Source: Limnoraphis robusta CS-951 (lineage in GTDB: Bacteria; Cyanobacteriota; Cyanobacteriia; Cyanobacteriales; Microcoleaceae). From it: a DNA stretch of 39,390 nt. The stretch lies in the NCBI RefSeq assembly GCF_000972705.2, contig NZ_LATL02000011.1, positions 1 through 39,390 on the forward strand, read 5' to 3'. Below are positions 7,199 through 39,390 of this stretch, in pieces. Both the position numbers and the translations under genes were made by a program. The notes below the pieces were generated by a model. That model was given only the letters and a program-made list of their open reading frames with translations. It was not told the origin of the DNA and ran no database searches. Position 1 is the stretch's first letter, and each line of letters opens with the position of its first letter.

Positions 7199-9154
7199 TT
7201 AGTATCCTAGATAAAGAAAAGAATAGCCCATATTTCTTCTTCTCGTATTAATAAAATCTTTGTTTTGATCCCCTTGAATTTCTCGAATTAAAACTTCATA
7301 GCCTGTGGCGGATGGTATGTAAGAACGGGTTAAAATAGCTACCTTTGACTGATCATTAATGTACTGAGCTTGAGGAGGATTAAGATCAGGAATATCAGAG
7401 TTAACATATATAAATCCTCCCTGAACTACAGTTAAACCCTGATTTTTTGTTTCTAAAATTGTACCGGGTTTTTCGGTTTTTAATCCCAATATCCAGAGTT
7501 GACCTCCATCATTTAAAATCTTAGATTCTGATTCTAAAGGTACACCTTCTACATTCAAACTTCTTGCCCAAGCTTTTTGATTTTGAATTTGCACTGATTC
7601 TGAAACAACATCTTCAAAAAATACATTCCCTTTCCCTTCTGTCGTGTTTTGATATGAAGTGATCCAACTTCGCTGAATGACCAGTGTACGATTGGCATTA
7701 TGTTCAATACTTGGCCCTTCCATTCGTTCCATCACAACAATCGGTTCATCACCCTCTTCAAACCGAAACACCGGATCAACTGAATCTCTCGTAAATTTTG
7801 CTCTCATACCAATAATTTTTTTGACAGTCCCCCGGATTAAAATAGGTTGATTCACCTGGTAAGAACGATTCGGAAGAAATACAGTCTGCACTCCGGGAGT
7901 ATCAATTGCGGCTTGAATATCTTCTCCTGAATTACCCTCTACAACTGCAATATTATTCAAATCATGTTCAATATAGGGTGTTTCTTCTACAGGGATAGAT
8001 AACATCTGGGTTTGGGTTGAAAGATTAACAATTGGAGATCTACACATCCACTGTTCAATCTCTCCCTGAAGTGTTTCAACTTCTCCTGTTTCGCAGCTAT
8101 AAACTTGAGCGGTATTTTGATATCCCGTTTGTTTGATATCAAATAAATAGGTGCTAATTGATTGCTTTTCTCCGTCTGTCGCTTGACCATTATCTCGATA
8201 TCGGGTTTCAATTGCGGCTTGATTATCTCCACCCAATCCTTGAAATTCACCACCAATCAGAGTAAGAGTAGCGTTATGTTCTTTGACTAATAAAACAGGA
8301 ACTTGGTTAATACTTTTTAAGTTCCGAATGGTTAGAACCTGCATAACCTGCTCAATTCCCACTTTATTTTGTTGGGTCAAGGTAATGTTTTCCATTGTGA
8401 TTGAGTTAGTCGTTCCTCCCCCCACAAGAATACCCTGATCAAAGCCTTCTACAAATACATTTTTAATCAAAAGAGGCCCGACTTCAGCAGAAGTTAAGTT
8501 CAGACCTTGAGCGCCTTGACCATCACCGGAAATAATTGCAACATTAAACACACCTCCGCCATTATTAGAGTTCATTTTGATGCCAATTGCATTTTTATTT
8601 CCTGAACCCACATGAACGGTTAAATTCTCAATGCGGTTGCGAAATGCGTTAGCTCGATTATCTTTTGTGTCTAAAACAGGTTTACTCTCGCCACTAGAAA
8701 AGTTATCAGCATTATCTTTAAGGCGAATAATACTTCCTTCTCGAGTTTCACCTAAAAGGGTTGTTCGTTTATAGTAAAGTCCGCCATGCGCTCCTTTTGG
8801 CCATTCAATCGTATCACTAACAATATAAGTTCCATTGGGAACATATATAATTTTGCTGCCGTTGGCAATTTCATCTCGGCTAATTGCTTGTTTAAAGGCT
8901 TCTGTATCATCGGTTATGCCGTCACCTTTTGCGCCGTAGTCTTTGACATTAATCACACCTCCCTCTGCTTCGGAAACAGGGGGAAACACTTCTCTTTGCG
9001 GCGGATAATTTGCCATTGCACTGTTAAGGCCAGGATTGTTTTGAGATAAATTTGATTCGGAGTTGGGAAAGATATTTTGCCTAAAAATTTCTTCGGAAGC
9101 GCAGCTTGAAGCTAAAAAGGTTAGTACAACTAAAGCTATTGTTTTGTAAATCAT
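7199..9154 (-). CDS. Secreted twin beta-helix protein, pectate-lyase superfamily (paralog A, probable lipoprotein)
   Basis: 651 aa. The N-terminus MIYKTIALVVLTFLASSCAS is a signal peptide ending in a lipobox-like ASSC (Cys18), so it is probably lipid-anchored. A Pectate_lyase_3-type right-handed beta-helix begins at GGVINVKDYGAKGDG (~65), with the usual TDDTEAF. A second, weaker helix start lies near 405-440, where the FGA motif has been lost but GEDIQAAID and FLPNRSYQV remain. Near residue 553 it carries QLWILGLKTEK, shared with the other two paralogs in this window. Such folds occur in polysaccharide lyases, epimerases, hydrolases and phage depolymerases; no catalytic residues can be assigned. 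Last gene of the 14-gene minus-strand run, so its role is probably on the locus's own polymer. Confidence 0.85.
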   Translation of the reverse strand: MIYKTIALVVLTFLASSCASEEIFRQNIFPNSESNLSQNNPGLNSAMANYPPQREVFPPVSEAEGGVINVKDYGAKGDGITDDTEAFKQAISRDEIANGSKIIYVPNGTYIVSDTIEWPKGAHGGLYYKRTTLLGETREGSIIRLKDNADNFSSGESKPVLDTKDNRANAFRNRIENLTVHVGSGNKNAIGIKMNSNNGGGVFNVAIISGDGQGAQGLNLTSAEVGPLLIKNVFVEGFDQGILVGGGTTNSITMENITLTQQNKVGIEQVMQVLTIRNLKSINQVPVLLVKEHNATLTLIGGEFQGLGGDNQAAIETRYRDNGQATDGEKQSISTYLFDIKQTGYQNTAQVYSCETGEVETLQGEIEQWMCRSPIVNLSTQTQMLSIPVEETPYIEHDLNNIAVVEGNSGEDIQAAIDTPGVQTVFLPNRSYQVNQPILIRGTVKKIIGMRAKFTRDSVDPVFRFEEGDEPIVVMERMEGPSIEHNANRTLVIQRSWITSYQNTTEGKGNVFFEDVVSESVQIQNQKAWARSLNVEGVPLESESKILNDGGQLWILGLKTEKPGTILETKNQGLTVVQGGFIYVNSDIPDLNPPQAQYINDQSKVAILTRSYIPSATGYEVLIREIQGDQNKDFINTRRRNMGYSFLYLGY

Positions 9155-9222
9155 GGTTCACCCGGTAACTTGAGTCTAAAAGATAGTCAAAATTTAATTT
9201 TGATTGAAATGAACACCCAGAT

Positions 9223-10665
9223 TTATTTTAAAAGCAATAAGACTTGAAATAGATCTTTAATCGATTTTGGACGCTGGTATGCTGTTTGTGGGGTAGCAAT
9301 TTCACTCACTTTGTTTTGCTTTTGACAGTGATGCTCTTGCCATCTCAAACCAATAATACTCGCAACATAAAGCATATAACCCGGTTCTTCCATTTGGGTA
9401 AAAATTAAACCGAAAGCGATGGGGCAAAGCGCAATAAACTTAGACACATCATCGAAACAGAGTCGTCGCCAAACCACCCACCAAACATATAGAAATGAAA
9501 TTAAACCGAGCCATCCTACATCTCCCCAAATTCCAGCCCAACCAAACAAGGGAGAAAACATACTGGATTGATCCCCTAACCAACTTGCTCCCACAGCTTG
9601 CCAAATTGCATTGGTAGCAGGGTGTTCGGTTGAACCGAGTGGACGCAACAGACTATCGTATTCTCGAAGCATCCATCCCCCCAGTCGTCCAACTGTATGA
9701 CCTGGCCCCAAACCCAACCAAGGATGCAATACGGAGTCATAGAAGGTCGGAACAATCCGAAACGTTGCTGTTTTCAAGAGAGTGGCTTCTCCTTCGGGGC
9801 CATAAATTTCGGGTCTCATCCAAGTTTGAAACGCTTCGAGAGCTTCTATATTATGTATACCCCAGAAGAACGCATAACCCAGCACAACGCCTCCAATGAT
9901 ATATTGAAGGGCTTGTACAATGTTTTGAAACTTAGTCAATAACAAAAATATACCCGCTATTCCAAACACCAGCATAACTTGTTTAGCATCAGCCATATTC
10001 ATGTGCCAAAATGTAGCTAATGCCACACCAGCACGAAATAAAATTGGCAGTTTTTTAGCGGCAGAAAAATAGTATACACCAAAAGTTAGGGCAACGGAAG
10101 CCGCAACAACGTGACCCGCTCCTCCCCCAATAAATACACCTTTAATATTGTCTTCTAAGCCTTCGCGAAGATGGAGCTGTAAAACATAATGTTGAACATA
10201 AGCAAAGATCGTATTGGTAAAAGAAGAAAAAATGATAAAGGCGCGAAATTGTAATAATTTCTCTGGAGTCAGAGGCAGACTAACAATTGCAATGAGCAGA
10301 AGAAAATGCTCACAAAAAAACATGAAATTTAAACAAGCATTAATGAAACCTGCATTGTTTAAAATTGCACTGGCAAGGTTGACTGCAAAAAATAGCATAA
10401 CCGCTATCGTTAATTCCTGAACAATGGCAATTTGTTTCCGATCTTTTACCTTGCTTTTTAGCAGTACAAATGCACAGATCCAAGGAATAATACCCAAATG
10501 CGCCAGGTTAATAATAGAAGGAAATTTTAATAAGGTTAAAACTCGGGGATAGAAAGCCGAACAAAAGCCAAAAAGCACCAGAGTAGACAGCTTAATAAAT
10601 CCCTTGCGCTTTTTTGGGGGTCGATAATAGTATGGAGTTTGAGTTAAGTCTTCATAGGATTTCAC
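9223..10665 (-). CDS. Wzy-like O-antigen/exopolysaccharide polymerase
   Basis: 480 aa with about 11-12 hydrophobic segments from residue ~28 to ~440 and a large loop at ~270-375 between late segments, the layout of Wzy/WaaL-type proteins. The loop contains HPWLGLGPGHTVGRLGGW; an HP.LG.GPG-like sequence is typical of O-antigen ligase/polymerase (Wzy_C) proteins. It would join lipid-linked repeat units on the periplasmic side of the inner membrane. The start is GTG with an AAGAGG site 10 nt upstream; no ATG fits better. In the minus-strand operon, 36 bp downstream of a GT4 gene. Ligase activity cannot be excluded from sequence alone. Confidence 0.8.
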   Translation of the reverse strand: MKSYEDLTQTPYYYRPPKKRKGFIKLSTLVLFGFCSAFYPRVLTLLKFPSIINLAHLGIIPWICAFVLLKSKVKDRKQIAIVQELTIAVMLFFAVNLASAILNNAGFINACLNFMFFCEHFLLLIAIVSLPLTPEKLLQFRAFIIFSSFTNTIFAYVQHYVLQLHLREGLEDNIKGVFIGGGAGHVVAASVALTFGVYYFSAAKKLPILFRAGVALATFWHMNMADAKQVMLVFGIAGIFLLLTKFQNIVQALQYIIGGVVLGYAFFWGIHNIEALEAFQTWMRPEIYGPEGEATLLKTATFRIVPTFYDSVLHPWLGLGPGHTVGRLGGWMLREYDSLLRPLGSTEHPATNAIWQAVGASWLGDQSSMFSPLFGWAGIWGDVGWLGLISFLYVWWVVWRRLCFDDVSKFIALCPIAFGLIFTQMEEPGYMLYVASIIGLRWQEHHCQKQNKVSEIATPQTAYQRPKSIKDLFQVLLLLK

Positions 10666-10701
10666 AAGCGATTAACCTCTTTCAAACCACAATTTTTAAC
10701 C

Positions 10702-11865
10702 TTAGAGAGAACGAGCAATTTCATAAATCTCCATAAGCTGATGGTAGTTTTTCTCAGGAGTATATTTCGCCTCATACTCAGCCCTAGCAGAGTGGCGCAT
10801 TTGGATTAATTCTTTGGGGTGAGCGATCGCTTTTTCCACTATAGCAGCTAAGTCTAAAGGATCACTCGGACGAAAATGCAACCCAGTACGATCATTATCA
10901 ACTAATTCGGCGATCGCTCCCAAATTAGAAGCAATAACCGGAGTCCCTTTCGCAAAGGCTTCTACCGCAACTCGACCAAAGGTTTCATACCATTTAGACG
11001 GAAAAATCAAAAACATTGCTTCTCCCATCATGTCATAAACCTCAGCCATCGGTTTGCGTCCCAACCACTCCACGTTAGACAGTCGTTGAGTCGCTTCAAC
11101 CACTAAACTCGATAAAGGCCCGTCTCCCACTATTTTAAGCGGGATAGGACTGTTGAGGTGTTCCCAAGCTTGCAGTAAGATATCAAGACCCTTTTCAACG
11201 GAAAGCCGCCCGACATAAAGGGCATATCCACCGCTTCCTGATCCCATTCCGGGGTCTGGAGAAACAAAGTTAGGTTTGACTATAATTTTCTCTCCAGGCC
11301 ATCCCGCTTCAATAAATTTTTGTCGAGCAAACTGACTTAAACTGACAAAAAGATTCACCTGGCTTAACCAAGTATTCATCACTTGATGAGTCATTAACAT
11401 GGCAATAGTTCCCGCAGTTGCCAGGCGACTTTCTCGATAGCAAGCGTGTAAAAATCCGGGATAAGGAACAGGTTTTCCGAGACAATCTTCACAAACTCGA
11501 CCTTGACGAAAAAACAGTCCATTAGGACAAATTAACCGATAATTTCGTAAGGTTTGGACAACTGGAACCCCTGCCGAACGGGCAGCATAATAAACCGAAG
11601 GTGAAATAAGCGGAAAAAAGTTCTGAACGTGAACGATATCTGTCGGTGAGTTCTTGAGCTTTTGTTGAACAATTTGATAGGATTCTTGAGACCAGATGGT
11701 TTTCAGGGCTAAATGAGCCGAATTAAAGCTAGCAATGCGATCATTATGTTCTTCGTAGCGATCAACTTCATGTCCCATTTCTCTAAGAAGATTGGCTTCG
11801 GCTTGGGTTGACTCATCTTCTCCGCCCCTCACTTGATAGTTGTTATGGATGCTCAAAATACGCAT
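10702..11865 (-). CDS. Glycosyltransferase family 4
   Basis: 387-aa GT-B retaining sugar transferase, cytoplasmic, probably membrane-associated. The N-terminal domain starts MRILSIHNNYQVRGGEDES (acceptor-side glycine loop). The middle has LRNYRLICPNGLFFR followed by a Cys-rich stretch (CEDC and a later Cys), typical of one GT4 subgroup. The C-terminal domain shows YVGRLSVEKGLDIL and the EX7E motif ETFGRVAVE with KGTPVIAS. Donor and acceptor sugars cannot be read. ATG start. It lies between a twin beta-helix gene and the polymerase gene in the same direction. Confidence 0.9.
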   Translation of the reverse strand: MRILSIHNNYQVRGGEDESTQAEANLLREMGHEVDRYEEHNDRIASFNSAHLALKTIWSQESYQIVQQKLKNSPTDIVHVQNFFPLISPSVYYAARSAGVPVVQTLRNYRLICPNGLFFRQGRVCEDCLGKPVPYPGFLHACYRESRLATAGTIAMLMTHQVMNTWLSQVNLFVSLSQFARQKFIEAGWPGEKIIVKPNFVSPDPGMGSGSGGYALYVGRLSVEKGLDILLQAWEHLNSPIPLKIVGDGPLSSLVVEATQRLSNVEWLGRKPMAEVYDMMGEAMFLIFPSKWYETFGRVAVEAFAKGTPVIASNLGAIAELVDNDRTGLHFRPSDPLDLAAIVEKAIAHPKELIQMRHSARAEYEAKYTPEKNYHQLMEIYEIARSL

Positions 11866-11913
11866 TGAAGCACAGTTCCTTTTGTTGTAAATTATCTCTC
11901 GTTTCTGGTCTGA

Positions 11914-13845: not shown

Positions 13846-14997
13846 TTAGGATTTTTTGTTAACGATAGATTCATAAATCGTTTCTAAAACACGAGCTTGT
13901 TTATCTTGGTTAAAATTGACTTCTACTTGTTCTCGTCCTCGCTGACTAAACTGTTGCCATAATTCTAGGTTATTTAATAATTGTAAACTATATTCAGCTA
14001 ATCCTTTAATATCTTTTTCTGGGGTCAGAAAACCTGTTTCTCCATGAATAACGGCTTCTGGAATTCCCGCATGATAGGTACTAATCACAGGAAGTCCCAT
14101 TGCTTGCGCCTCTAATACAACATTGGGTAATCCTTCAGAATCCCCTTGAGATGCGGTAACACTTGGGGTTGCGAGTAAACGAGCGCGATTCATCCAATTT
14201 CGCACAATTTCAGGCGGTTGGGTTCCGAGAAATTGATAGTTTTTCAGTTTTTGTTCGGCTAAAGTTTCAAGCTGAGTTTTTAACGTTCCATCCCCAATAA
14301 TTACCAGTTGAACCTCTGGTTTTTCGGCTTGAACGTGGCTGATTGCTTCGATTAAATATTCACAGCCTTTTTTCTCGGTTAAACGCCCCACAAACAGCAC
14401 GATGGGTTCGCGAGTTATTTCTAAATTGGGGCAGAATTTGTTAACATCTACGCCATGATAATGGGTTCTAATTTTTTCAGGCGGAAAGCCATTTTCTAGG
14501 AGTTTTTTATGAATAAATTGAGAAACGGTTAAAAATAAAGTGGTTTTTTCTTTTAGCTTTTCCAAACGATTAAAATAAATCCAATGATTCAGAGAGGTAT
14601 AGCGGGAATGTTCGGCATCAACGGTGGCATCTGCGCCTCGATAGTGAACAATTAGAGGAATATTCAGTGATTTTATCCAGGGTAAAACTAAGACTCCACT
14701 CAACCCAAATTGAGCATGAATTAAAACCGGATTTAACTGTTTAACCTGTCGATAAAGTTGGGGAGCAAAGCCAGAAAGTTTAAAGAGTTGTTCCTCTATT
14801 TTCCCTCTCAAATTCCCGGAATTAATAACAAAGGTTCGTTCCCTGGGTAATTCTAATCCTTGTACCCGACGAGAACCCACATAATAGGCGGTAAATTGTT
14901 GAAATTTCTCCGCCGGGTCTCGTATAAAAGTCTGGGAGGGAGGAAGCAAAAGGCTGTTAAATAAGATGACGGCGGGTTTGCTTGTATAGTTCTGCAT
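13846..14997 (-). CDS. Glycosyltransferase family 4
   Basis: 383-aa GT-B transferase. N-terminal domain: LFNSLLLPPSQTFIRDPAE (~12-30), the SQTFI form seen in colanic-acid WcaL-type transferases, then IHAQFGLSGVLVLPW and HYRGADAT. C-terminal nucleotide-sugar domain: VLFVGRLTEKKGCEYLIEAI, VIIGDGTLKTQLE, and the EX7E motif EGLPNVVLE followed by MGLPVIST. Sugar specificity unknown. ATG start; only 15 bp separates its stop from the next gene (paralog B), supporting co-transcription. Confidence 0.9.
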   Translation of the reverse strand: MQNYTSKPAVILFNSLLLPPSQTFIRDPAEKFQQFTAYYVGSRRVQGLELPRERTFVINSGNLRGKIEEQLFKLSGFAPQLYRQVKQLNPVLIHAQFGLSGVLVLPWIKSLNIPLIVHYRGADATVDAEHSRYTSLNHWIYFNRLEKLKEKTTLFLTVSQFIHKKLLENGFPPEKIRTHYHGVDVNKFCPNLEITREPIVLFVGRLTEKKGCEYLIEAISHVQAEKPEVQLVIIGDGTLKTQLETLAEQKLKNYQFLGTQPPEIVRNWMNRARLLATPSVTASQGDSEGLPNVVLEAQAMGLPVISTYHAGIPEAVIHGETGFLTPEKDIKGLAEYSLQLLNNLELWQQFSQRGREQVEVNFNQDKQARVLETIYESIVNKKS

Positions 14998-15031: not shown

Positions 15032-16297
15032 TCAACTGATAATTTTTTCATAAAGTTGGGCTAATTTTTGACCTTTAATTTCCCAAGAAAATTCTTCTTG
15101 AACTCGCTTTTGTCCGGCTTTTGCCATCTGCGTTCGCAACTCGGGGTTTTCAGCTAGAGTTTTCATCGCCAAGGCTAAATCTTTTATTGCTTGTTCGGGA
15201 GTTTCAGCCGTGATTTTAAAGCCTGTTTCTTCTGTAACTTGCAGGGCTGGCCCGCCCAAATCTAAACAGATAACAGGACAACCTGCTGCCATCGCTTCTA
15301 AACAGACTAACCCACCGGATTCATGCAGGCTAGGATGAACTAAAGCCACGCATTGTCTGAGCTTATTTAAGGTGTCTTGTCGAGAGAGTTTCTTCCAAAA
15401 TTTAACTTGAGTTTGAATGCCTAATTTCTCAACTAAATCCTCAAGTATTTGGCGTTCTGGGCCGTCGCCAATCATCCAATATTCTGTATTTTTGGGTAAA
15501 TTCGCTTGAGCAAAAGCTTGTAATCCTAAGTGAAATCCTTTCCAGTGTAACAGGCGACCAATACTAACAAATCTGATGGTATTTCGCTCAAGTTGAACGG
15601 CTTCTCCGAGTTGAATAATTTCTTCTTGAGATAGTCCTAATTGAGAGATGATTTCGACATGAGTGGCGCCGAGTTTTCGCAGTCTAGAGGCTGTGTCTTC
15701 TGTTGTTCCTCTAGCTAAAATACTGCGTTGAGCGGTGAGGTGAACAAAGGGGTCAATTTCTCCTAAGTTTCGGACAATATCTCGGAGAATTTCATAGCGT
15801 TTTCCTGAAGCACTAAACTCTTTGCGAAAAGCTGGGGGCGCCACTTCTCCGCCACCGACTGGCCCCCAAACAAAAGGAACGGGGAGTAATGCTAAAAAAC
15901 TCGGCGTTGCATAGCGAACGTAGGTGACATGATGAACGATATCAAACTTGATTTGTTGATGCAGTTTACGGCCTAGAAAATAAGCGGAAATTTGCCAGAG
16001 ATAATAGTGTAAATAAACCAGTCGTTGGTTTCGGTTCAGTTTTTGTACCCAACGAGAAGGTTCACAGTAGATAAATTCTAAGCCTGGTAAGGGATTTTTT
16101 TGGAGTTCAGCTTCGATTTCCGAACGATTATTTTCTCGCGTTAAAACCCAGACTTTGTGATATTTCACCAGTTCTCGAACGATGTTCCATCCAACTCCTG
16201 GTTCTGAACCTTCTCCGGGACGACAGGCATAGGCGGAGATTAAAACGTTCAGACCGTTCACGTTATCTTCAAGTTCTAATCGGTTAAATTCGCTCAT
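15032..16297 (-). CDS. Glycosyltransferase family 4
   Basis: 421 aa. The N-terminal signature ISAYACRPGEGSEPGVGW (~21-38) defines a GT4 subgroup common in cyanobacterial exopolysaccharide clusters. PFVWGPVGGGE (~140) and RFVSIGRLLHWKGFHLGL (~240) follow, then the EX7E motif ESGGLVCLE and AAGCPVICLDLGGP. Retaining cytoplasmic GT-B enzyme; donor and acceptor unknown. ATG start. A 98-bp gap separates it from the upstream methyltransferase gene and 34 bp from the next GT. Confidence 0.9.
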   Translation of the reverse strand: MSEFNRLELEDNVNGLNVLISAYACRPGEGSEPGVGWNIVRELVKYHKVWVLTRENNRSEIEAELQKNPLPGLEFIYCEPSRWVQKLNRNQRLVYLHYYLWQISAYFLGRKLHQQIKFDIVHHVTYVRYATPSFLALLPVPFVWGPVGGGEVAPPAFRKEFSASGKRYEILRDIVRNLGEIDPFVHLTAQRSILARGTTEDTASRLRKLGATHVEIISQLGLSQEEIIQLGEAVQLERNTIRFVSIGRLLHWKGFHLGLQAFAQANLPKNTEYWMIGDGPERQILEDLVEKLGIQTQVKFWKKLSRQDTLNKLRQCVALVHPSLHESGGLVCLEAMAAGCPVICLDLGGPALQVTEETGFKITAETPEQAIKDLALAMKTLAENPELRTQMAKAGQKRVQEEFSWEIKGQKLAQLYEKIIS

Positions 16298-17305: not shown

Positions 17306-18439
17306 TTAGAGTAAAGATTCTGTGACTTTCTTCAAAAACTGAGCAGCCCTATCCGGGGCATATTGATTCATTAACGCTTCTGATTGAGCGCCCATTGACA
17401 CGACTAACTCTGGGTTTTCAATAAAACAACGCATTAAGTTCGCGAGCTGTTCTGGGTGATAGGGATCAAAACAGTATCCATTCTGACCATCAGTGATTAA
17501 TTCCGATGCTCCTGCCCATTTTGAGCAAAGAATTGGCTTTCCTAATATCATCGCTTCTAAAACAACCATTCCCCAAGTATCTTCTAAAGTGGGTAGTACA
17601 AATACATCTGCTTTCTGAAAATATTCTCCTAGTTCTCCATAGTTAACTCGACCTACCCATTGAACGCAATCTGTTAAATCATTCTCCTGACAAAACTGTT
17701 GGAGTTCTTCCTGTTGGGAACCGTCTCCCACGATTAATACAGTATAGTTTGTATGTCCTTGTTTTTTCAAGTGTGTGCAAGCGTCTAAGAGAAAATTTAA
17801 TCCTTTTCTCGGAATCACACTTCCGACAAATAGAAAGATAGGTTTTTGCCAAGAGGTTAGGGCATCTATAATATTAGCAGACTGGCTAAAAAGAGCTTGA
17901 ACCGCAGGAACTTCATAGGGATGTACAAAAACCTGTGAGGGTTTCGCGTTGAGAACTTCTGTTAGATAAGATTTACCTGCGTTTGAATTGGTAATACAAG
18001 CATCGGACGCTTTAACCATTGCTCGTCGTACTGTTAACCGAGGGGCGGAATTTCGAGCATCAATACTCGGTGAACTTCCTTCATAAGCAATCACAACTTT
18101 CCATTTTCCGATAGGTTTAAAGAGTAAAGCAATCATCGTCCAAACGCCAAAGGAGTTGGAAAAAATGACATCGGGTTTAAACTTTAATAATCGATTAACG
18201 ATATTTAACGGCAGATAGGTAAAACTATAGCCATAACCTTTAGAGGATTTGATAATCGGGATAATTTTTCGTTCTCCGACGATATCAATTTTAAAAGAGT
18301 CTTCAAAACCGGGAGCATAACCTCGCCAGTTTGCCACAAAAGCTGTCATTTCAGGAAATAGTTTTGCTAACTCTGCTAGAGGCGGATGCCAATAGTAAAA
18401 GGCGGAGGTGAGTAACCAAGCAATCCGAATATTATTCAT
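17306..18439 (-). CDS. Glycosyltransferase family 4
   Basis: 377 aa. N-terminal domain MNNIRIAWLLTSAFYYWHPPLAEL, with VIFSNSFGVWTMIAL and VVIAYEGSSPSIDARN (~115-135). C-terminal domain: PIFLFVGSVIPRKGLNFLLDA, VLIVGDGSQQEEL, and DTWGMVVLE (the EX7E motif with Asp replacing the first Glu), then LGKPILCSKWAGASELI. Retaining GT-B fold; specificity unknown. Its start lies 15 bp from the stop of the upstream flippase-like gene, so the two are very likely translated from one mRNA. Confidence 0.88.
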   Translation of the reverse strand: MNNIRIAWLLTSAFYYWHPPLAELAKLFPEMTAFVANWRGYAPGFEDSFKIDIVGERKIIPIIKSSKGYGYSFTYLPLNIVNRLLKFKPDVIFSNSFGVWTMIALLFKPIGKWKVVIAYEGSSPSIDARNSAPRLTVRRAMVKASDACITNSNAGKSYLTEVLNAKPSQVFVHPYEVPAVQALFSQSANIIDALTSWQKPIFLFVGSVIPRKGLNFLLDACTHLKKQGHTNYTVLIVGDGSQQEELQQFCQENDLTDCVQWVGRVNYGELGEYFQKADVFVLPTLEDTWGMVVLEAMILGKPILCSKWAGASELITDGQNGYCFDPYHPEQLANLMRCFIENPELVVSMGAQSEALMNQYAPDRAAQFLKKVTESLL

Positions 18440-25200: not shown

Positions 25201-25235
25201 TTGAGAAAATTTTATTCTAATCGTTATACTATAAT
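25201..25235 (+). promoter_or_regulatory. Candidate promoter of the plus-strand GT4 gene
   Basis: TTGAGA (25201-25206), an 18-bp spacer, then TATACT (25225-25230) followed by an overlapping TATAAT (25230-25235). This predicts a transcript start near 25240, about 30 bp before the ATG at 25270. It lies where a longer TTG-started reading of the gene would begin, and so argues for the shorter protein. Confidence 0.5.
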
Positions 25236-25269
25236 ATACTCAATAAAGTACAAGTTGCCAAGTTTTCAA

Positions 25270-26382
25270 ATGCTAGAAAGATCACCTGATGTAGCCTTTT
25301 TTCTCGGTTTCTTAGGTGGTGGTGGAGCGGAGCGAGTTTTCATTAATCTGACTCGGAGTTTTGCCGAACGAGGTTTAAAGGTAGATTTGGTGTTAAGTTC
25401 AGCCGGAGGGCCTCATTTAGAGAAAGTATCACCTCAAGTCAGAATTATTGATTTCAAAACACCTCGCCTGACTGCTTGCCTCCCTTCCCTGATCAGTTAC
25501 TTAAAACAAGAACAACCGAGAGGAATGCTTTCAACTCTCCACTATGCCAATGAAGTGGCTCTCTTGGCGAAAAAGCTTTCTAGAACTCCAACAAGGGTGG
25601 TGGTACGTGAGGCAAATAATCTTTCCAGAGACACCCAAGCATCGACACCCTATAAAAGACGTTTACTACCCTTTTTGGTCAGATCTTTTTATCCTTGGGC
25701 TGATCATATTGTAGCTGTTTCTAAGGGAGTTGCAGAGGATCTTTCTCAGGTTTCTGGTTTGTCCCTAGAACGTATCCAAACGATTTATAATCCCACAATC
25801 ACTCCAGAGTTACAGGAAAAAGCGAAAGAACCTCTTGATCATCCTTGGTTTGCTGATGGACAACCTCCAGTCATTTTAGGAGTGGGTAAATTACACATTC
25901 AAAAAGATTTTTCAATGCTAATTCGGGCTTTTGCACAAGTCCGACAAGTCCGAGAAGCTCGATTAATGATTTTAGGATGGGGGCCTGAACGACCTCAACT
26001 CGAAGCATTAGTTCAAGAATTAGGCTTAGAAAATGATGTGGCATTACCGGATCATGTATTGAATCCTTATGCCTATATGTCACGATCCGCAGTCTTTGTA
26101 TTATCCTCCGCTTGGGAAGGCTTACCGAATGTATTAATTGAAGCGATGGCAACGGCAGTCCCTGTGATTTCTACAGATTGTCAAAGTGGGCCTTCTGAAA
26201 TTCTCAAGGGTGGTGAATATGGCTGGTTAACTCCAGTTGGTGATAGTCAAGCGATGGCCGAGGCAATTCTGAAAGTTTTATCGGGGAATTTAAAGCCAAT
26301 TGATCCCGATTGGCTCAAACAGTTTACGTTGGAAGTTTCAAGTCAACGATATCTAGATATTCTGGGAATTACTCAAGATTAA
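25270..26382 (+). CDS. Glycosyltransferase family 4 (inverted relative to its neighbours)
   Basis: 370 aa from ATG 25270 (MLERSPDVAFFLGFLGGGGAERV...). The frame is open to a TTG at 25201, but the extra 23 residues (Tyr/Ile-rich) overlap a good promoter, and the GT4 N-terminal strand begins only after the ATG. Motifs: GGGGAERVFINLTRSF (acceptor glycine loop), VVVREANNLSRD, VILGVGKLHIQKDFSMLI, LMILGWGPERPQLE, and the EX7E motif EGLPNVLIE with TAVPVISTDCQSGPSEIL. The last is the form seen in GalNAc/colanic-acid-type GT4 proteins. It is the only plus-strand gene between two minus-strand blocks; the next gene converges on it with a 37-bp gap. Confidence 0.9.
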   Translation: MLERSPDVAFFLGFLGGGGAERVFINLTRSFAERGLKVDLVLSSAGGPHLEKVSPQVRIIDFKTPRLTACLPSLISYLKQEQPRGMLSTLHYANEVALLAKKLSRTPTRVVVREANNLSRDTQASTPYKRRLLPFLVRSFYPWADHIVAVSKGVAEDLSQVSGLSLERIQTIYNPTITPELQEKAKEPLDHPWFADGQPPVILGVGKLHIQKDFSMLIRAFAQVRQVREARLMILGWGPERPQLEALVQELGLENDVALPDHVLNPYAYMSRSAVFVLSSAWEGLPNVLIEAMATAVPVISTDCQSGPSEILKGGEYGWLTPVGDSQAMAEAILKVLSGNLKPIDPDWLKQFTLEVSSQRYLDILGITQD

Positions 26383-28937: not shown

Positions 28938-30737
28938 TTACGAGAGGTTATCTTTCAGAACAACTTCTTTGTAGCTACCAGACTCAACGACTCGCCCTTT
29001 CTCCAAGCGATAGATAAAATTACAATGTTCAACCGTTGTGAGACGATGAGCAATGATGATCATAGTTTTAGCTCCACTCAATGATTTAATCGCTTCTGTA
29101 ACTAGAGTTTCCGTTTCGTTATCAAGAGCTGACGTTGCTTCATCAAGAACTAATATTTCTCGTTCGTGATAAAGTGCGCGAGCAATTCCCACTCGTTGGC
29201 GTTGACCTCCAGATAGACGAACTCCTCTTTCTCCCACTCTTGTTTTCATACCCTCGGGTAAATTGGCTACGACTTCTTTGAGTTGCGCTCCCTCTATGGC
29301 TTTATTCAATTTGTTTTCATCAATTAAATGATCCGGAAGACCAAAAGCAATATTTCGCTCCAGTGTGTCGTCTATCAAAAAAATTGACTGGGGTATGTAA
29401 CCGATGAGATTTTGCCAAGAACGCAAGTTTTTATAGATTGATTGTCCATCAACCTGAATATCACCAGACTGAGGAACTAATAAGCCTAAAATCACATCAA
29501 CCAAGGTTGTTTTACCTGCTCCCGATTTACCAATAAAAGCAATAGATTGACCTTTTTCAAGTGTCATTGAGATTTTTTCTAATGCGATTTCTGAGGTCTT
29601 CGGATAGGAATAGGTCACTTGATCTAAGACGATTTTTTGCTCAAAGGGTATGGTATGATTCGCCTCTGTTAAAGAAGAATGAGAATGCTGTTCTTGATGG
29701 AAACTCGGATCAGACTCTAGGGTTTCTAACTCTTTGAGATCGGTGTAGAGTTGATTTAAAGCATAGCTAGAGTTTTTCAGCACACTCAAACCACTGGTGA
29801 GATTAGAGAAAGCAGGAATTAGGCGAATAGAAGCTAGAGCAAAAATGCTTAAAGTTGATGTCAGTTCCGACATATCTCGGTTTAAAAAAAGATTGATTGA
29901 TGTAAAGCCGACTAAAAACACGACTAACATCGTTTCTGTAATAAAACGAGGAGATAGCTTAAAAGCATAGAAGCCAATGGAAGCGTCGGCATATCTTTGA
30001 GCTTGTAAAGTACATTCCTGTTCAAAATAAGGGCCGCAACCGATAATTCTAGTTTCCTTAAATCCACCTAAACCGTGGTTAACCCCTCGTATAATTCCTT
30101 GATTGGCTTCATAAAGTTCTTTACCCCAAAAGCGCACTTTGTCTTTAAAAGCATTAAATAGAAAGATCAGAGGTAGCATGATAAAAATTAGAGAAGCTAC
30201 CGCTAGAGGACTCGCGAAACACAGCAATACAGAAATCGCGATTAAAGTGATAAAGTTAGCCGTGCTGCTCAGAAGTGTACTTAAAACCGCATCTGCAAAC
30301 TTCGTTGTTTCTCCGACTATATGATCAATTAAGTGAGCGCTATTTTTGCTGAGATAGAAAGTATAGGGAGCTTCTATATAAGCCGTCATCAGTTTAGAGA
30401 CTAATCGGCCTCTCTGAATGTAGCTGTATTTAAAAATATAGGATTGAATAGACCAACTTATCAAGGATTTTACACAGAAGATAATAATGACTAAAATTCC
30501 AATGAATGCCACCATTTGGCTCGGCTGAGTGAAGCCTAACTGTTTGTAGAGCCAAGCAATCTGACTGCTTTCTTTAACAACAGCTTCCGGACGACTCGCT
30601 AAACTAATAAATGGTCCAATTAAACCAATGCCAATCACCTCAATTGTCGAGACAAATGTAAATAAGACCAGCATTAATACCAAGCTGCTCTTTTTGGCAG
30701 GTAGAACATATAAAAATTTAGACAAGTAACTGAACAT
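28938..30737 (-). CDS. ABC exporter half-transporter (MsbA/PglK-like), probable lipid-linked oligosaccharide flippase
   Basis: 599 aa, a fused membrane domain and ATPase. About six hydrophobic segments lie in residues 15-325. The nucleotide-binding domain starts near 368 (IVLDQVTYSYPKTSEIALEKI): Walker A GKSGAGKTT (~402-410), Q-loop GYIPQSIFL, signature LSGGQRQRVGIARAL (~510-524), Walker B ILVLDEATSALD (~530-541), H-loop IIAHRLTTV. Full-length homodimeric exporters of this type include PglK, which flips undecaprenyl-linked oligosaccharides. In this locus, without a Wzx, a flipping role is attractive. Lipid or peptide export cannot be excluded. ATG at 30737. Confidence 0.88.
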   Translation of the reverse strand: MFSYLSKFLYVLPAKKSSLVLMLVLFTFVSTIEVIGIGLIGPFISLASRPEAVVKESSQIAWLYKQLGFTQPSQMVAFIGILVIIIFCVKSLISWSIQSYIFKYSYIQRGRLVSKLMTAYIEAPYTFYLSKNSAHLIDHIVGETTKFADAVLSTLLSSTANFITLIAISVLLCFASPLAVASLIFIMLPLIFLFNAFKDKVRFWGKELYEANQGIIRGVNHGLGGFKETRIIGCGPYFEQECTLQAQRYADASIGFYAFKLSPRFITETMLVVFLVGFTSINLFLNRDMSELTSTLSIFALASIRLIPAFSNLTSGLSVLKNSSYALNQLYTDLKELETLESDPSFHQEQHSHSSLTEANHTIPFEQKIVLDQVTYSYPKTSEIALEKISMTLEKGQSIAFIGKSGAGKTTLVDVILGLLVPQSGDIQVDGQSIYKNLRSWQNLIGYIPQSIFLIDDTLERNIAFGLPDHLIDENKLNKAIEGAQLKEVVANLPEGMKTRVGERGVRLSGGQRQRVGIARALYHEREILVLDEATSALDNETETLVTEAIKSLSGAKTMIIIAHRLTTVEHCNFIYRLEKGRVVESGSYKEVVLKDNLS

Positions 30738-31261
30738 ATATTATCGATGACAATAGGTGTTTATTTCTCAATCTCTCTCGGGCTTTATTTTACTCTAATC
30801 TCGGATAATCTTGCGGAGTTAATTGGAAAAATAAACTCTAAAATCAGACGTAAAAGAGGGCTTTTGTAATCCGGATTATTCTAGTAAATTAAGCTGTTTT
30901 ATGCGGACATGACTGAGTTCAATTTTCTCTATAGGCGCATCTACAAAGGTTGAGGTTTTTACTGATAAAAAGTTTCGAGGCTCAACAGCTTAGTTTGATT
31001 TGATACTTGAGACTGGTCAGCTCTGAAATTATACATCAGAAGTAGTACGATGAGATTATAACTCAACAACTTACCTTGTGGCTAGAATTGCATACAATCC
31101 TGGCTCAAGTTGATGAACTTTAGTAAAGGTTTACAGAAAGTCGAGATCGGACGGCTAGAGTTTTGTAAAGATTTAATGAAGGAGTCGAACAGTCTCTTGA
31201 CAATGCTCTTCTGAAGTGTGAACCTCAGTTATGGCGGGTGTTAAAGTTAAAAATTTTTCAT
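30738..31261. promoter_or_regulatory. Divergent intergenic region between the ABC exporter and rfbF
   Basis: 524 bp between divergent genes, expected to hold both promoters. It contains a perfect -35-like TTGACA (31197-31202), but no fitting -10 lies 16-18 bp downstream. No RNA gene, hairpin with U-run or convincing small ORF was seen. A GTG at 31238 opens the rfbF frame eight codons early but is not needed. Otherwise nothing recognised. Confidence 0.4.
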
Positions 31262-32035: not shown

Positions 32036-32043
32036 ATCAAAAA

Positions 32044-33090: not shown

Positions 33091-33108
33091 GGAACAGGAG
33101 TAGAAACC

Positions 33109-34338
33109 ATGCCCGATACAATGCCCCCTTGTCTTTCTTGTGGTTCCCAAAATTTACAGTCTATTATTGACTTTGGATATACTCCTTTGGCAGATGGACT
33201 GTTAACCAAAGATCAACTCGATCAACCTGAATATACTGCTCCTTTAGAACTGGCTTTTTGTCCAGACTGTGGATTAGTTCAAATTACCGTTAGTGTTCCC
33301 CCAGAGATTCTGTTTTGTCGGGATTATCCCTATTTCTCCTCAGTTTCTCCCTCTTTACTCAAACACTTTGGAGATAGCGCCAAAGCCATTATTGAGTCTA
33401 GAAAACTCGATGGTAGCAGCTTTGTGATCGAAGCTGCGAGTAACGATGGCTATATGCTGAAAAACTTTGTAGAAGTCGGAATTCCAGTATTAGGAATTGA
33501 TCCGGCTTCAGGGCCAGTTGAAGCGGCACAAAAAGCAGGGATTCCTTCAACTTGTACCTTTTTTACCCAAGATTTAGCCAAAGAATTGCGATCGCAAGGA
33601 AAGCAAGCCGATGTTTTTCTAGGGAATAATGTACTGGCTCATGTTCCCGACTTGAACGGTTTTGTCGAAGGAATTAGTATTCTACTAAAAGATACAGGAG
33701 TAGCAGTCATTGAAGCTCCTTATTTGGTTGATTTAGTCGAACATTGTGAATTCGATACGATCTATCATCAACATTTGTGTTACTTCTCTGTTACCGCTTT
33801 AGACAACCTGTTTAGAAGACATTCTCTCTATCTCAACGACATTCAACGCACAGCGATTCATGGCGGTTCTTTACGTTTGTTTGTAGAACCCAAAGAAGAC
33901 GTTAAAGACTCGGTGAAGTCTCTACTCCAAACGGAAAAAGAACAGGGCGTTGATCGCATTGACTACTACAAAGACTTTGCAGATAACGTTGAAGCCGTTA
34001 AGAATGGTTTGCTTGAAATCTTGTGGGATTTGAAAAAGCAAGGGAAACGAGTTGTGGGTTATGGTGCTGCCGCTAAAGCCACAACAATGTTGAGTTATGT
34101 GGGAATTAACAAAACTCATTTAGACTACATTGTAGACCTGAATAAGTTCAAACAAGGTCGGTTTATGGGCGTGAATCATTTACCGATTTTCCCCCCAACG
34201 AAGCTGTTAGAAGACAAGCCAGATTATGTGTTAATTTTGGCTTGGAACTTTGCGGAAGAAATTATGAAACAGCAAGAAGCCTATCAACAGCAAGGCGGGA
34301 AATTTATTGTTCCCATTCCCAAACCGCATATTGTCTAA
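33109..34338 (+). CDS. Sugar C-methyltransferase (TylCIII/NovU type), SAM-dependent
   Basis: 409 aa in three parts: N-terminal zinc-binding domain with C8, C11, C51 and C54 (Methyltransf_13); SAM-binding core with [15 protein letters not shown] (~107-121), [10 protein letters not shown] and [14 protein letters not shown]; and a C-terminal Methyltransf_14 domain including [15 protein letters not shown] (~244-258) and [17 protein letters not shown] (~315-331). Family members place a C-methyl group at C-3 of a 4-keto nucleotide sugar. AGGAG lies 8 nt before the ATG at 33109. Gap to the SDR is 18 bp, and the terminator begins 10 nt after the stop, closing the operon. Confidence 0.92.
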
Positions 34339-34382: not shown

Positions 34383-34383
34383 T

Positions 34384-34734: not shown

Positions 34735-34782
34735 AACGCATCCGGAATACTGATTAAGTTAATTTGATTTAGCAAACATTTA

Positions 34783-34960
34783 ATATCATGTCCGGTTGAA
34801 CAGTTATAAATAAACGACAGAGGAGTCAGGAGTCAGGAGTCAGGAGGAAATCAAGAAGAAGAAAGAGGAGGAGGAGTCACCGAGTCACCGAGGAAATCAA
34901 GAAGAAGAAAGAGTCGGATTATGAGAAAGTTTTTTATCACTAATTATCCGGACATGATAT
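34783..34960. mobile_element. MITE-like element with terminal inverted repeats
   Basis: About 178 bp bounded by the perfect 13-bp inverted repeat ATATCATGTCCGG / CCGGACATGATAT, with weaker similarity continuing inward to about 28 bp. A TA dinucleotide lies at each edge (34784-34785, 34958-34959), as expected for IS630/Tc1-mariner-type target duplication. No coding capacity. The interior is a purine-rich repeat tract (34821-34913). Probably a non-autonomous element mobilised in trans; the family is not recognised. Confidence 0.6.
34821..34913. repeat. Purine-rich tandem and direct repeats inside the MITE-like element
   Basis: AGGAGTC is repeated three times plus a partial fourth copy (34821-34846). 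A 24-bp direct repeat starting GAGGAAATCAAG occurs at 34844-34867 and 34890-34913, 46 bp apart. Between them GAGTCACC occurs twice in tandem. The plus strand is almost wholly purine here. Confidence 0.75.
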
Positions 34961-34976
34961 AAGTCTTTAATATTAT

Positions 34977-35376: not shown

Positions 35377-35985
35377 ATGACCACATTTTTATCCGATGAC
35401 TTTAATAACAGCAGCCTCAGTTCTCAGTGGAGTTTTATTGACCCCGTTGGTAATAGTTCTTATAGCCTGAGTGGCACAAATACAAAAGATGCTTATTTAA
35501 ACCTATCCGTTCCTAGTGGTTCATCTCACGACATCTGGAACAACACCCTCACAGCCGCACGAGTGATGCAACCGGCGACAAATACCGACTTTGAACTGGA
35601 AGTCAAATTTGCCTCCGAACCCGCCCAAAGATATCAAATACAAGGCATCTTAGTCGAACAAAATGCCAACAACTGGCTGAGATTTGACACCTTTCACGAT
35701 GGTAGCCAACTGTTTGTATTTGCCGCAGCAACCATCAACGGTTCTTCCCAAGAAAAAATGCTCGCCGAAATTGACTCCGGTGAAGCGTCTCATCTGAGAG
35801 TCAATCGTCAAGGGTCAACATGGACATTAGAGTATTCGGCAGATGGACAAACCTGGGCGAGTGCAGGCAGTTTTACTCAAGCCCTCAATGTCACATCCGT
35901 CGGAACATTTGCGGGGAATGCAGGTAATAATAATCCAGCTTTTACCAGTCAAGTCGATTACTTTTTTAATACCGCCGCTCCCATT
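35377..35985 (+). repeat. Duplicated beta-sandwich module, copy 1
   Basis: 203 codons, MTTFLSDDFNNSSL to FFNTAAPI. It matches copy 2 (38731-39339) without gaps; I count about 26 residue differences by eye (roughly 87% identity). LRFDTFHDGSQL and HLRVNRQGSTW are conserved in both. Confidence 0.9.
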
Positions 35986-38900
35986 CGTTTAGAAGATGGA
36001 AATCAGCTCTCCATTGACAATGATATTTCTGTCACTGAAAATGATACAGGTACAACGACCCTGAACTTTACCGTCAGCTTATTAGAAGCCAGTGATGAAG
36101 TTGTAACCGTAGATTTTTCCACCGAATCTGCGACGGCGACTGAGGGAGTCGATTATCTAGGCAGCAGTGGAACTCTTAGCTTTGCACCGGGCGTCACTGA
36201 ACAAACGATTTCAGTTGAAGTGCAAGGCGACGAAAATATTGAGCCTTATGAAAGCTTTTTCGTCAACCTGTTTAATCCCAGTAATGCTTCTATCGGTGAT
36301 AGTCAAGCTATCGTCACCATTACCGATGATGATGTTGACTCAAACTTCCCGCAAGTGAAATTTCCCGATGATGCGGGAATGGTGAATATCAAAGATTATG
36401 GAGCCAAAGGGGATGGAGTTACAGATGATACCGCAGCCATTCAGCAAGCCCTGGCAGAAAATCGGGTCATCCACTTTCCCAATGGCACCTATCTAGTCAG
36501 TGATACCCTGCAATGGGGAGATACAAAACGACTGGTGTTGCAGGGAGAAAGTCAAGATAAAACGATTATTAAACTCAAAGATAACCTCGCTGCCTTCAAC
36601 AACTCCAGTAGCCCTAAACCCCTGCTGACAACCTTTGAAGGGCAGAGTACAGGACAAGCGTTTCAAAACTCAATTTACAACCTGAGTGTTGATGTCGGAG
36701 CCGGAAATGCCGGTGCAATTGGTATCCGGTTTACCAGTAATAATCAAGGTGGTCTTCGCGATGTTACGATTCGCTCCAGCGACCCCAATAATTTAGGTAA
36801 AACTGGACTCGCTCTGACAAAACCCTGGCCGGGTCCATCTTTATTCAAGAACGTCACCGTTGAAGGGTTTAATTATGGGGTGGAAGTTAATCATCCCGAA
36901 TATAGTAACGTTTTTGAAAATTTAACCCTGCGCGATCAGAAAATTGCAGGTATTAGCAACAATGGCAATATTCTCAGCATCCGGGGATTAACCAGCAACA
37001 ATTCCGTTCCGGTGATCGAGAATAATGATGATAAAGGAATGATCACCCTAATTGATGGCAACTTCGAGGGCGGTTCGTCACAAACCTCAGCCATTAACCT
37101 CAAAGCCGGGACGTTATATGCCCGCAATATTACCACTGAAGGCTATCAGTCCGCTCTCAAAAAAGGCAACAGCATCGTTTCAGGTAACTCCATCTCTGAA
37201 TACGTTTCCAGTCCAGCTTATAGCCTTTTCCCCTCTCCGCAAACCTCTTTACAACTCGATGTACCGGAGTTACCGGAAATTCGCTATGACAACCTGAGTA
37301 ACTGGGCGAACGTTACCGATTTTGGTGCCATTGCTTCCGACAATCAAGACGATAGCGCCGCCATTCAAGCCGCACTCAACTCTGGAAAATCTACCATTTA
37401 CTTTCCGGGTGGTCGATACAACATCAACAATACTCTCGAAGTCGGGGGCAACGTCAAGCTAATCACCGGAGCATCTTATCAAACCGTTCTCACCGTTGGA
37501 GGGAACTTAAAAAATCAGGATCAACCCGTATTCCGGTTTGAGTCTACTAATCAAGATACAGTCACATTGGAACGCTTTTTTGGGGACTATGGAGGCGGAA
37601 ACTTTCATTGGGTTGAACAAGCCTCCCCAAACACTCTTGTTCTGAGAAATTTTGCCGTTGGTTCCGGTTCAGCGTACCGCAACAGCGTTCCCGGTGAACT
37701 GATTATTGAAGATGTTGCAGCTAGTGATTGGGTGTTTGACGAACAAAAGGTTTGGGCTTGGCAACTCAATCCAGAAGGCTTCACCACCAAAATTACCAAC
37801 AATGGCGGACAACTCTGGGTTCTCGGACTCAAAACCGAGAAAGAAGGCACGATCATCGAAACCACAGCAGGAGGACAGACAGAAGTTCTTGGGGGGTTAA
37901 TTTATCCCGCCAGCCGAGGTGATTTGATTCCTTCCCAACAGCCTGCTTTTATTAATGATGAGTCCCAACTGACGATCGCAGGCGTGGGTGAATCTCGATA
38001 CAACGTGGGTAGCTACAACATTTTAGTTGAGGAAACCCGCAATGGGGTGACTGAAACTTTGCTCAACGATAGCAATATTCTCAGACGGGGACAGGGTTTT
38101 GAAATTCCCCTCTATACAGGCTTTCAAGACAGTAGTGGGAACCTTAATCAAGCCCCCGTCGCTGTTAATGATTCTTTGACGATTGATAGTGTTGAATCAA
38201 TTGTTATCGATGTGTTGAGTAATGATAGCGATCGCGATGGTCGTCTCGATCCGACGAGCGTCACGATTAATAATCAACCGAGTCAGGGTGAGGTCAGTGT
38301 TGATTTAACGACAGGAGCAATAACCTATACTCCCGATGCCAGTTTTACCAATAACGATAGCTTTACCTACACGGTTCAAGATGATGATGGCGAAACCTCC
38401 AACGTAGCAACAGTCAGCATTACCTTGGATGCCAATCAAGCGACCGTTGCCAACAACGATACAGCTTCTGTCTCCCGTGGGCAATTCGTTGAGATCAATG
38501 TATTGGCAAACGACAGCGACAGTGATGGGACTGTTGACCCCCTGACTGTGGAGATCGCTCAACCGCCAGCCTATGGGGAAGTGTTGGTGAATAGCAACGG
38601 CACCATCAGTTATACCCACAATGGCTCGAACACAACCAGTGATAGCTTCACTTACGCCGTTCGAGACGATGAAGCTGCTCAATCTAATGTTGCAAGTGTA
38701 AACCTAACGATTGAAACTCCCTCTCAAAATATGACCACATTTTTATCCGATGACTTCAATAACAGCAGTCTCAAGTCCCAATGGAGTTTTGTTGACCCTG
38801 TTGGTAATAGCTCCTATAGTCTGACTGGCACCAACACCGAAGATGCCTATTTAAACCTATCGGTTCCTAGCGGTTCATCTCACGATCTGTGGAACAATAA

Positions 38901-39390
38901 CGTCAAAGCCGCACGGGTGATGCAACCAGCGACAAACAGCGACTTTGAACTCGAGGCCAAATTTGCCTCCGTACCCAGCCAAAAATTTCAGATACAAGGG
39001 ATTTTAGTTCAACAAAATGCCACCAACTGGCTGAGATTTGACACCTTTCACGATGGTAGTCAACTCAAAGTCTTTGCAGCGGCCACCATCAACGGTTCTT
39101 CCCAAGAAAAACTGATCGCCAACATCAACCCAACTCAAGCTTCTCATCTAAGAGTCAATCGTCAAGGCTCAACTTGGAAGCTAGAATATTCCGCAGATGG
39201 ACAAACCTGGGCGAGTGCAGGTAGCTTCACTCAAGCCCTCAATGTTACATCAGTCGGAACATTTGCCGGAAATGCGGGTAATAATGCTCCAGCTTTTACC
39301 AGCCAAGTCGATTACTTTTTTAATACGGCCGCTCCTATCGTTCCGGAAGATGTCGCCCTTCCCAACCAAGCCCCCGTTGCGAATGATGAT
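35377..39390 (+). CDS. Giant multidomain secreted protein with twin beta-helix (paralog C); runs off window end
   Basis: An uninterrupted frame from ATG 35377 to the last base, 1338 codons without stop; an in-frame TAG at 35350 makes this the first ATG. Domains in order: ~200-residue beta-sandwich module resembling DUF1349 (1-203); Calx-beta (~210-322, ATEGVDY, ENIEPYESFFV); twin Pectate_lyase_3 helix (~335-920) with starts VNIKDYGAKGDG and VTDFGAIASDNQDDSAAIQ, KPWPGP, and QLWVLGLKTEK (~811-821); two cadherin-like/VCBS-type modules (~924-1018, 1019-1115; VLSNDSDRDG, VLANDSDSDG); a second copy of the beta-sandwich module (1119-1321); and the start of another NQAPVANDD module. There is no N-terminal signal peptide, so export by type I secretion via a C-terminal signal beyond the window is likely. 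Possibly an exopolysaccharide-modifying or sheath protein. Confidence 0.88.
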   Translation, partial: MTTFLSDDFNNSSLSSQWSFIDPVGNSSYSLSGTNTKDAYLNLSVPSGSSHDIWNNTLTAARVMQPATNTDFELEVKFASEPAQRYQIQGILVEQNANNWLRFDTFHDGSQLFVFAAATINGSSQEKMLAEIDSGEASHLRVNRQGSTWTLEYSADGQTWASAGSFTQALNVTSVGTFAGNAGNNNPAFTSQVDYFFNTAAPIRLEDGNQLSIDNDISVTENDTGTTTLNFTVSLLEASDEVVTVDFSTESATATEGVDYLGSSGTLSFAPGVTEQTISVEVQGDENIEPYESFFVNLFNPSNASIGDSQAIVTITDDDVDSNFPQVKFPDDAGMVNIKDYGAKGDGVTDDTAAIQQALAENRVIHFPNGTYLVSDTLQWGDTKRLVLQGESQDKTIIKLKDNLAAFNNSSSPKPLLTTFEGQSTGQAFQNSIYNLSVDVGAGNAGAIGIRFTSNNQGGLRDVTIRSSDPNNLGKTGLALTKPWPGPSLFKNVTVEGFNYGVEVNHPEYSNVFENLTLRDQKIAGISNNGNILSIRGLTSNNSVPVIENNDDKGMITLIDGNFEGGSSQTSAINLKAGTLYARNITTEGYQSALKKGNSIVSGNSISEYVSSPAYSLFPSPQTSLQLDVPELPEIRYDNLSNWANVTDFGAIASDNQDDSAAIQAALNSGKSTIYFPGGRYNINNTLEVGGNVKLITGASYQTVLTVGGNLKNQDQPVFRFESTNQDTVTLERFFGDYGGGNFHWVEQASPNTLVLRNFAVGSGSAYRNSVPGELIIEDVAASDWVFDEQKVWAWQLNPEGFTTKITNNGGQLWVLGLKTEKEGTIIETTAGGQTEVLGGLIYPASRGDLIPSQQPAFINDESQLTIAGVGESRYNVGSYNILVEETRNGVTETLLNDSNILRRGQGFEIPLYTGFQDSSGNLNQAPVAVNDSLTIDSVESIVIDVLSNDSDRDGRLDPTSVTINNQPSQGEVSVDLTTGAITYTPDASFTNNDSFTYTVQDDDGETSNVATVSITLDANQATVANNDTASVSRGQFVEINVLANDSDSDGTVDPLTVEIAQPPAYGEVLVNSNGTISYTHNGSNTTSDSFTYAVRDDEAAQSNVASVNLTIETPSQNMTTFLSDDFNNSSLKSQWSFVDPVGNSSYSLTGTNTEDAYLNLSVPSGSSHDLWNNNVKAARVMQPATNSDFELEAKFASVPSQKFQIQGILVQQNATNWLRFDTFHDGSQLKVFAAATINGSSQEKLIANINPTQASHLRVNRQGSTWKLEYSADGQTWASAGSFTQALNVTSVGTFAGNAGNNAPAFTSQVDYFFNTAAPIVPEDVALPNQAPVANDD
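38731..39339 (+). repeat. Duplicated beta-sandwich module, copy 2
   Basis: In frame, 3354 bp downstream of copy 1. It even retains the ATGACCACATTTTTATCC sequence that serves as translation start in copy 1, here internal, so copy 2 appears to derive from an N-terminal copy of this or a related gene. Confidence 0.9.

Follow-up and report, generated by a model that had tools for sequence, protein, structure and literature searches.

Why should one polysaccharide locus encode three homologous beta-helix proteins? The question is raised by a stretch of 39,390 nucleotides from Limnoraphis robusta CS-951 (contig NZ_LATL02000011.1, positions 1 to 39,390; hereafter the window), which contains the genes of the related proteins A, B and C together with that of a membrane protein termed W (Table 1). 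An earlier note, made from the sequence alone, had proposed that the three proteins form a set acting on the same polymer at successive places, for example by trimming, epimerising or organising it. With moderate confidence, we now regard A, B and C as glycoside hydrolases resembling family GH55, of which A and B would cut the polymer of their own locus in the cell envelope and C would act outside.

Homology of the three proteins and relation to GH55

The homology of A, B and C was confirmed. They are alike over approximately 620-650 columns of alignment (E at most 1e-87), with identities of 35% (A/B and A/C) and 40% (B/C), and have a homologous stretch of approximately 600 residues in common. 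The motifs PNG.Y..SDT, GNxxAIG and LGLKTEK...GG.(I/L)Y are present in all of them, and the LGLKTEK block is conserved in the family. Two successive units of the Pectate_lyase_3 type, as proposed in the earlier note, were only partly recovered: PF12708 matches each protein (E 7e-32 to 7e-35), but a second stretch exceeded the cut-off in B and C and not in A.

A search for relatives yielded 1645 proteins at E <= 0.001 among 7994 candidates scored. The family reaches beyond cyanobacteria, as the best 80 of 362 loci include titles of Planctomycetota, Verrucomicrobia, Armatimonadetes and others. Public records already name some relatives 'glycoside hydrolase family 55 protein', so that the GH55 link as such is not new. 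For comparison we used the GH55 beta-1,3-glucanases PcLam55A (3eqn), CtLam55 (5m5z), MnLam55A (8jhh) and SacteLam55A (4pex). The predicted structure of B is a double beta-helix; in the stretch B54-635, 540-554 of its residues are aligned with GH55 structures (428 with SacteLam55A). Among the 50 structure matches listed, the entries outside GH55 spanning both helices by range were 4oj5 (root-mean-square deviation 27), 2pyg (261 residues aligned) and 7ukj (248). Homology to a characterised GH55 enzyme was also detected by phmmer (E 1e-16 to 5m5z), and hhalign with GH55 gave a distant match of 99.5% over B57-462. B-Phe164 corresponds to the Phe of the GH55 aromatic block, while the Trp, the Asp and the remaining relay residues of subsite -1 had no confident alignment. 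A search with a CtLam55 fragment gave no match in 100 genomes, a result that is uninformative because this set held no positive control. We regard the double-helix fold of B and the homology of the family as established; judged by sequence, the family of A, B and C is distantly related to the fungal glucan-cutting GH55 enzymes.

The beta-helix of the PF12708 type also occurs in other proteins. AlgE/AlgG epimerases and phage tailspike depolymerases share such a right-handed helix with the N-terminal half of the family, and a match to PF12218, the N-terminal family of endosialidases, stayed below threshold. Unlike the family, however, these proteins match one helix only. That A, B and C are C5-epimerases or polysaccharide lyases of the AlgG/AlgE kind is very improbable, since AlgG/AlgE-like proteins align over approximately 260 residues, i.e. 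one helix, and a DPHD-like motif (D[PAGS]H[DN]), which we take to be the catalytic motif of the AlgE/AlgG mannuronan C5-epimerases, occurs in none of 124 family members. Furthermore, no Pfam match of the UDP-sugar dehydrogenase type was obtained among the window genes scanned. The epimerase or lyase identity was therefore rejected, and with it the epimerising role considered in the earlier note.

A phage origin was likewise rejected. Seven phage records match partially, none of them over 80% of B, and the window gave no phage-type Pfam match above cut-off; PHROGs was not searched.

Candidate catalytic residues

In GH55, according to a passage of PMC10637969, a helper Tyr assists the general-acid Glu, and the His of subsite -1 follows a relay Glu. 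Two Glu stand out in the family: over 124 rows, Glu527 and Glu550 (B numbering) are conserved in 93% and 95%, respectively. Both are kept in all 36 polysaccharide-linked rows (11 with a glycosyltransferase only, 25 with W) and in all 15 other cyanobacterial rows; in non-cyanobacterial rows the values are 51/59 and 54/59.

To place these residues on GH55, B was truncated at residue 531, folded by structure prediction and aligned to GH55 structures. The last residue fell on MnLam55A 595, CtLam55 635 and PcLam55A 614, at a model end of low confidence (mean pLDDT, the predicted local distance difference test score, 58 over the last eight residues) and with GH55 entries ranking 18th and 19th, after one-helix matches. 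With Glu591 of MnLam55A as anchor, Glu527 would lie on the relay Glu and Glu550 one rung on, at the place of the general acid (Glu614). The C-terminal parts were also scanned with an ungapped profile, in which this register came first among 72,900 windows; its score of 14.3 is below the 95% point of the column-shuffle maximum (16.9) and insufficient as proof alone. The two Glu are 21 (C), 23 (B) and 25 (A) positions apart, compared to 22-23 in GH55. Hhalign of the C-terminal halves alone favours a register one rung off, at low probability (25%). Assuming our register, the helper Tyr (MnLam55A Tyr617) is not kept, position 553 being Tyr in only one of the 36 polysaccharide-linked rows. An alignment of 24 rows showed neither a His after NxE nor a Tyr at +3 of KTE, where MnLam55A has His592 and Tyr617. 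On balance, the LGLKTEK block, which the earlier note did not know from described lyases, most likely carries the general-acid position of GH55 and is probably not foreign to known enzymes. Glu550 of the KTE motif is likely the general acid and Glu527 of the NxE motif the water-activating residue. Because the helper Tyr and the His of subsite -1 are not kept, we describe the family as GH55-like and expect its substrate to be a different one.

The loss of these two helper residues would also suit proteins that no longer cut. A and B might instead attach to the growing polymer within the envelope and serve as its chaperone, guide or anchor, the GH55 scaffold having been turned to binding, and there are adhesins among the beta-helix proteins, e.g. 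PfbA, a one-helix match. We consider such non-catalytic helpers unlikely, as both candidate Glu are conserved without exception in the 51 cyanobacterial rows sampled, which come from several diverged clades. In the GH55-like hydrolases that we favour, two successive right-handed beta-helices would form a substrate cleft between them, where Glu550 and Glu527 would catalyse.

Genomic neighbourhood

Neighbourhoods of family genes in cyanobacteria (47, 8.6 to 20 kb) were compared with 33 controls, all of 20 kb at round coordinates and from nine of the same genomes. Out of 62 distinct cyanobacterial places (non-cyanobacterial G011 excluded), 50 fall in the 47 fetched neighbourhoods; 12 were omitted by eye as short contigs or as partial or lower-scoring matches. 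Two of the omitted places (G010:C299 and G488:C1210) have W adjacent and would have raised the count of W.

A homologue of a window glycosyltransferase was found in 33/47 family neighbourhoods and 1/33 controls, a homologue of W in 24/47 and 0/33, and at least three polysaccharide-gene homologues in 29/47 and 1/33. One neighbourhood (L197), whose sole glycosyltransferase is a GT2 homologue, is within the 33 but was not classed as polysaccharide-linked in the tree and residue counts. Co-occurrence with wza, wzc and wzy, which the earlier note had proposed to score, held for the Wzy-like W but not for the others: Wza (1/47 versus 0/33), Wzc (4/47 versus 1/33) and the ATP-binding cassette (ABC) exporter (7/47 versus 4/33) showed no clear enrichment. 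Of the 24 neighbourhoods with W, 15 have it at most 300 bp from the family gene and 21 have both on one strand. One recurring order is GT4_4, GT4_6, GT4_3, GT4_1, family gene, W. Within cyanobacteria, family members from several clades adjoin the putative Wzy-type polymerase and the GT4 block.

The association was also visible at the level of genomes. In 388 genomes of one class, with up to three candidates per genome scored, the family was present in 34 and W in 93; W occurred in 31 of the 34 genomes with the family and in 62 of the 354 without it, genome kinship being uncorrected. Where W is most window-like (at least 467 bits), 23 of 27 genomes have the family, against 8 of the 66 other W genomes, likewise uncorrected for kinship. 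A wider draw of the phylum contained the family in 4/194 genomes, centre included. Among the published titles and abstract openings listed on GH55 or on Wzx/Wzy with cyanobacterial exopolysaccharide, none dealt with the association described here; apart from passages of one paper, the texts were not checked for it.

W itself has 480 residues and several hydrophobic segments (six by a crude hydropathy count). No Pfam polymerase match was obtained in 15 members, no NCBIfam match for the window protein, and no convincing relative in the PDB. With 1142 relatives at E <= 1e-20 among 7995 scored, it belongs to a conserved cyanobacterial polytopic family without a Pfam family. Among the 120 best relatives listed, almost every named one is a 'hypothetical protein', and one bears an O-antigen polymerase name (UniRef); named close relatives are from Limnoraphis (92%) and Lyngbya (83%). 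Due to its topology, its operon position and the one O-antigen polymerase name we call W Wzy-type, and it may build the sugar chain.

Beyond cyanobacteria, the family was seldom placed near polysaccharide genes. Among 57 non-cyanobacterial loci of at least 10 kb, a glycosyltransferase homologue was found in two and W in none, though references derived from the window would miss diverged genes. The two exceptions are an alphaproteobacterial metagenome-assembled genome (L042), which also has Wza/Wzc, and a Rhizobium (L053). These counts would be expected if the proteins were secreted glucanases digesting foreign beta-glucans of fungi or algae, their proximity to polysaccharide genes being without function. 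Characterised GH55 enzymes degrade laminarin, as a passage of PMC10637969 states, and five of the seven other rows in the clade of C, two of them with RTX repeats, lie outside glycosyltransferase neighbourhoods. Scavenging is plausible for C. As an explanation of the whole it is improbable, since for A and B it is opposed by the same-strand adjacency to W, which recurs in separate clades, and by the association with W at genome level.

Do A, B and C form a set?

The tree comprised 113 rows and was made by a quick search without a mixture model, loci duplicated between collections being omitted; 27 of its 110 inner branches are open, and gain and loss are not distinguishable. A, B and C fall into three separate clades. 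B groups with three rows and A with two, all of polysaccharide loci, and C with the seven rows mentioned above. The label 'polysaccharide-linked' changes 17 times on the tree. Members of the A and B clades occur together in no genome of the tree, members of the B and C clades in one, on separate contigs. From this distribution we conclude that the family member next to W differs between lineages and that the trio is peculiar to the window in our sample. As a conserved system the trio was rejected, and the set of enzymes at three stations envisaged in the earlier note was not borne out.

Export and proposed role

Each protein had been assigned a different apparent export route. By eye, A has a lipobox-like ASSC and C no N-terminal hydrophobic segment, the hydropathy scan having covered only the helix part of C; B has such a segment. 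C contains Calx-beta and cadherin-like domains. A C-terminal RTX repeat (PF00353) is present in two rows of its clade and fits type I secretion, the C-terminus of C itself lying beyond the window end. Diversity of export signals is usual in the family. Among the 36 polysaccharide-linked rows, a crude scan with evident misses gave 18 Sec signals or anchors, 4 lipobox-like signals and 14 without any, some of which are explained by other domains preceding the helices.

C also has an internal duplication, two very similar DUF1349/GH43_C2-like modules at the start and after the cadherin repeats. One relative of C (L154 5407-10833, 1809 aa) contains PA14, Calx-beta, the GH55-like double helix and an RTX repeat, and L159 encodes two relatives in tandem, of approximately 1835 aa each.

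A and B would be exported and retained in the cell envelope, where they may cut their own polymer by end trimming, length limiting or release, as PelA does for Pel. C would leave the cell by a separate route, probably type I secretion, and act outside. According to the abstract of PMC9894940, hydrolase activity of PelA yields secreted low-molecular-weight Pel. Glycosidases of such operons can thus shape the product, and we propose a similar role for A and B as the most economical one.

Tentatively, and at less than even odds, we extend this to a cyanobacterial pathway of polysaccharide synthesis that has a distinct kind of polymerase (W). Its window-like W subgroup would have a near-obligate GH55-like partner setting chain length or release. 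Such a pathway would have arisen in several lineages as different members of one old hydrolase family came to lie next to W. According to a passage of PMC10485101, it is still challenging to assign cyanobacterial genes to complete polysaccharide pathways. A recurring hydrolase beside a putative polymerase offers a two-gene, directly testable handle on polymer length and release, and the family may cut polymers with few known enzymes. The results also set this GH55-like group, partly labelled GH55 in public records, apart from the proven beta-1,3-glucan enzymes.

Composition of the locus

Pfam and NCBIfam scans identified the window as a cyanobacterial polysaccharide locus with Wza-like, Wzc-like, glycosyltransferase, ABC exporter, acyltransferase and methyltransferase genes. 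Eight glycosyltransferase genes were found by Pfam, seven of group 1 and one GT2. The transcription order in the window is GT4_3, GT4_2, B, GT4_1, W, A.

The region 28938-34338 holds the ABC exporter, a glucose-1-phosphate cytidylyltransferase (above the NCBIfam cut-off), an NAD-epimerase and a C-methyltransferase, a group presumably resembling the heterocyst envelope polysaccharide (HEP) island. As the exporter scored 279.7 bits against HepA (NCBIfam cut-off 725), no HEP assignment was made. The gap before C (34820-34920) contains short purine-rich repeats, gtcaggagtcaggag and gaagaagaaag. By eye, the open frame 3-311 at the window start resembles a TnpB-type transposon protein at its zinc-finger end. 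No Rfam match was obtained in the window.

Table 1. Features of the window (positions in nucleotides).
Feature	Position	Strand	Remarks
Protein A, GH55-like double beta-helix, 651 aa	7199..9154	-	Lipobox-like N-terminus; double helix by homology to B
Protein A, candidate catalytic residues	7547-7549; 7472-7474		Glu 536; Glu 561
Protein B, GH55-like double beta-helix, 638 aa	11914..13830	-	Sec signal or N-terminal anchor
Protein B, candidate catalytic residues	12250-12252; 12181-12183		Glu 527; Glu 550
Protein C, GH55-like double helix at residues ~330-916	35377..39390	+	Open at window end; double helix by homology to B; order: DUF1349/GH43_C2-like, Calx-beta, GH55-like double helix, Big_9/cadherin repeats, second DUF1349/GH43_C2
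Protein C, candidate catalytic residues	37774-37776; 37837-37839		Glu 800; Glu 821
W, polytopic membrane protein	9223..10665	-	Putative Wzy-type polymerase or ligase
GT4_1, GT4-type glycosyltransferase	10702..11865	-	Belongs to recurring block
GT4_2, GT4-type glycosyltransferase	13846..14997	-	
GT4_3, GT4-type glycosyltransferase	15032..16297	-	Belongs to recurring block
GT4_4, GT4-type glycosyltransferase	17306..18439	-	Belongs to recurring block
GT4_6, GT4-type glycosyltransferase	25201..26382	+	Homologues within recurring block of other genomes
Wza-like polysaccharide export protein	2970..4790	+	Poly_export, SLBB
Wzc-like chain-length / tyrosine autokinase protein	4884..7145	+	
ABC exporter, PglK/HepA/MsbA kind	28938..30737	-	Possible lipid-linked-sugar flippase; below cut-off of each of 25 NCBIfam families listed

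Comparison with known systems

Like the GH55 enzymes, the family has two tandem beta-helices with a linker across its whole length, distant sequence homology and, most likely, the positions of the relay Glu and the general-acid Glu. It is shorter than fungal GH55 (approximately 580 versus 750 residues) and differs from GH55 in lacking the helper Tyr and the His of subsite -1 and, in cyanobacteria, in adjoining polysaccharide-synthesis genes. In the latter respect A and B resemble PelA (Pel) and PslG (Psl), whose glycosidase genes likewise reside within the synthesis locus of the polymer presumably cut. PelA and PslG have folds other than the GH55-like double helix and, unlike in those systems, the partner of the hydrolase is here a putative Wzy-type polymerase.
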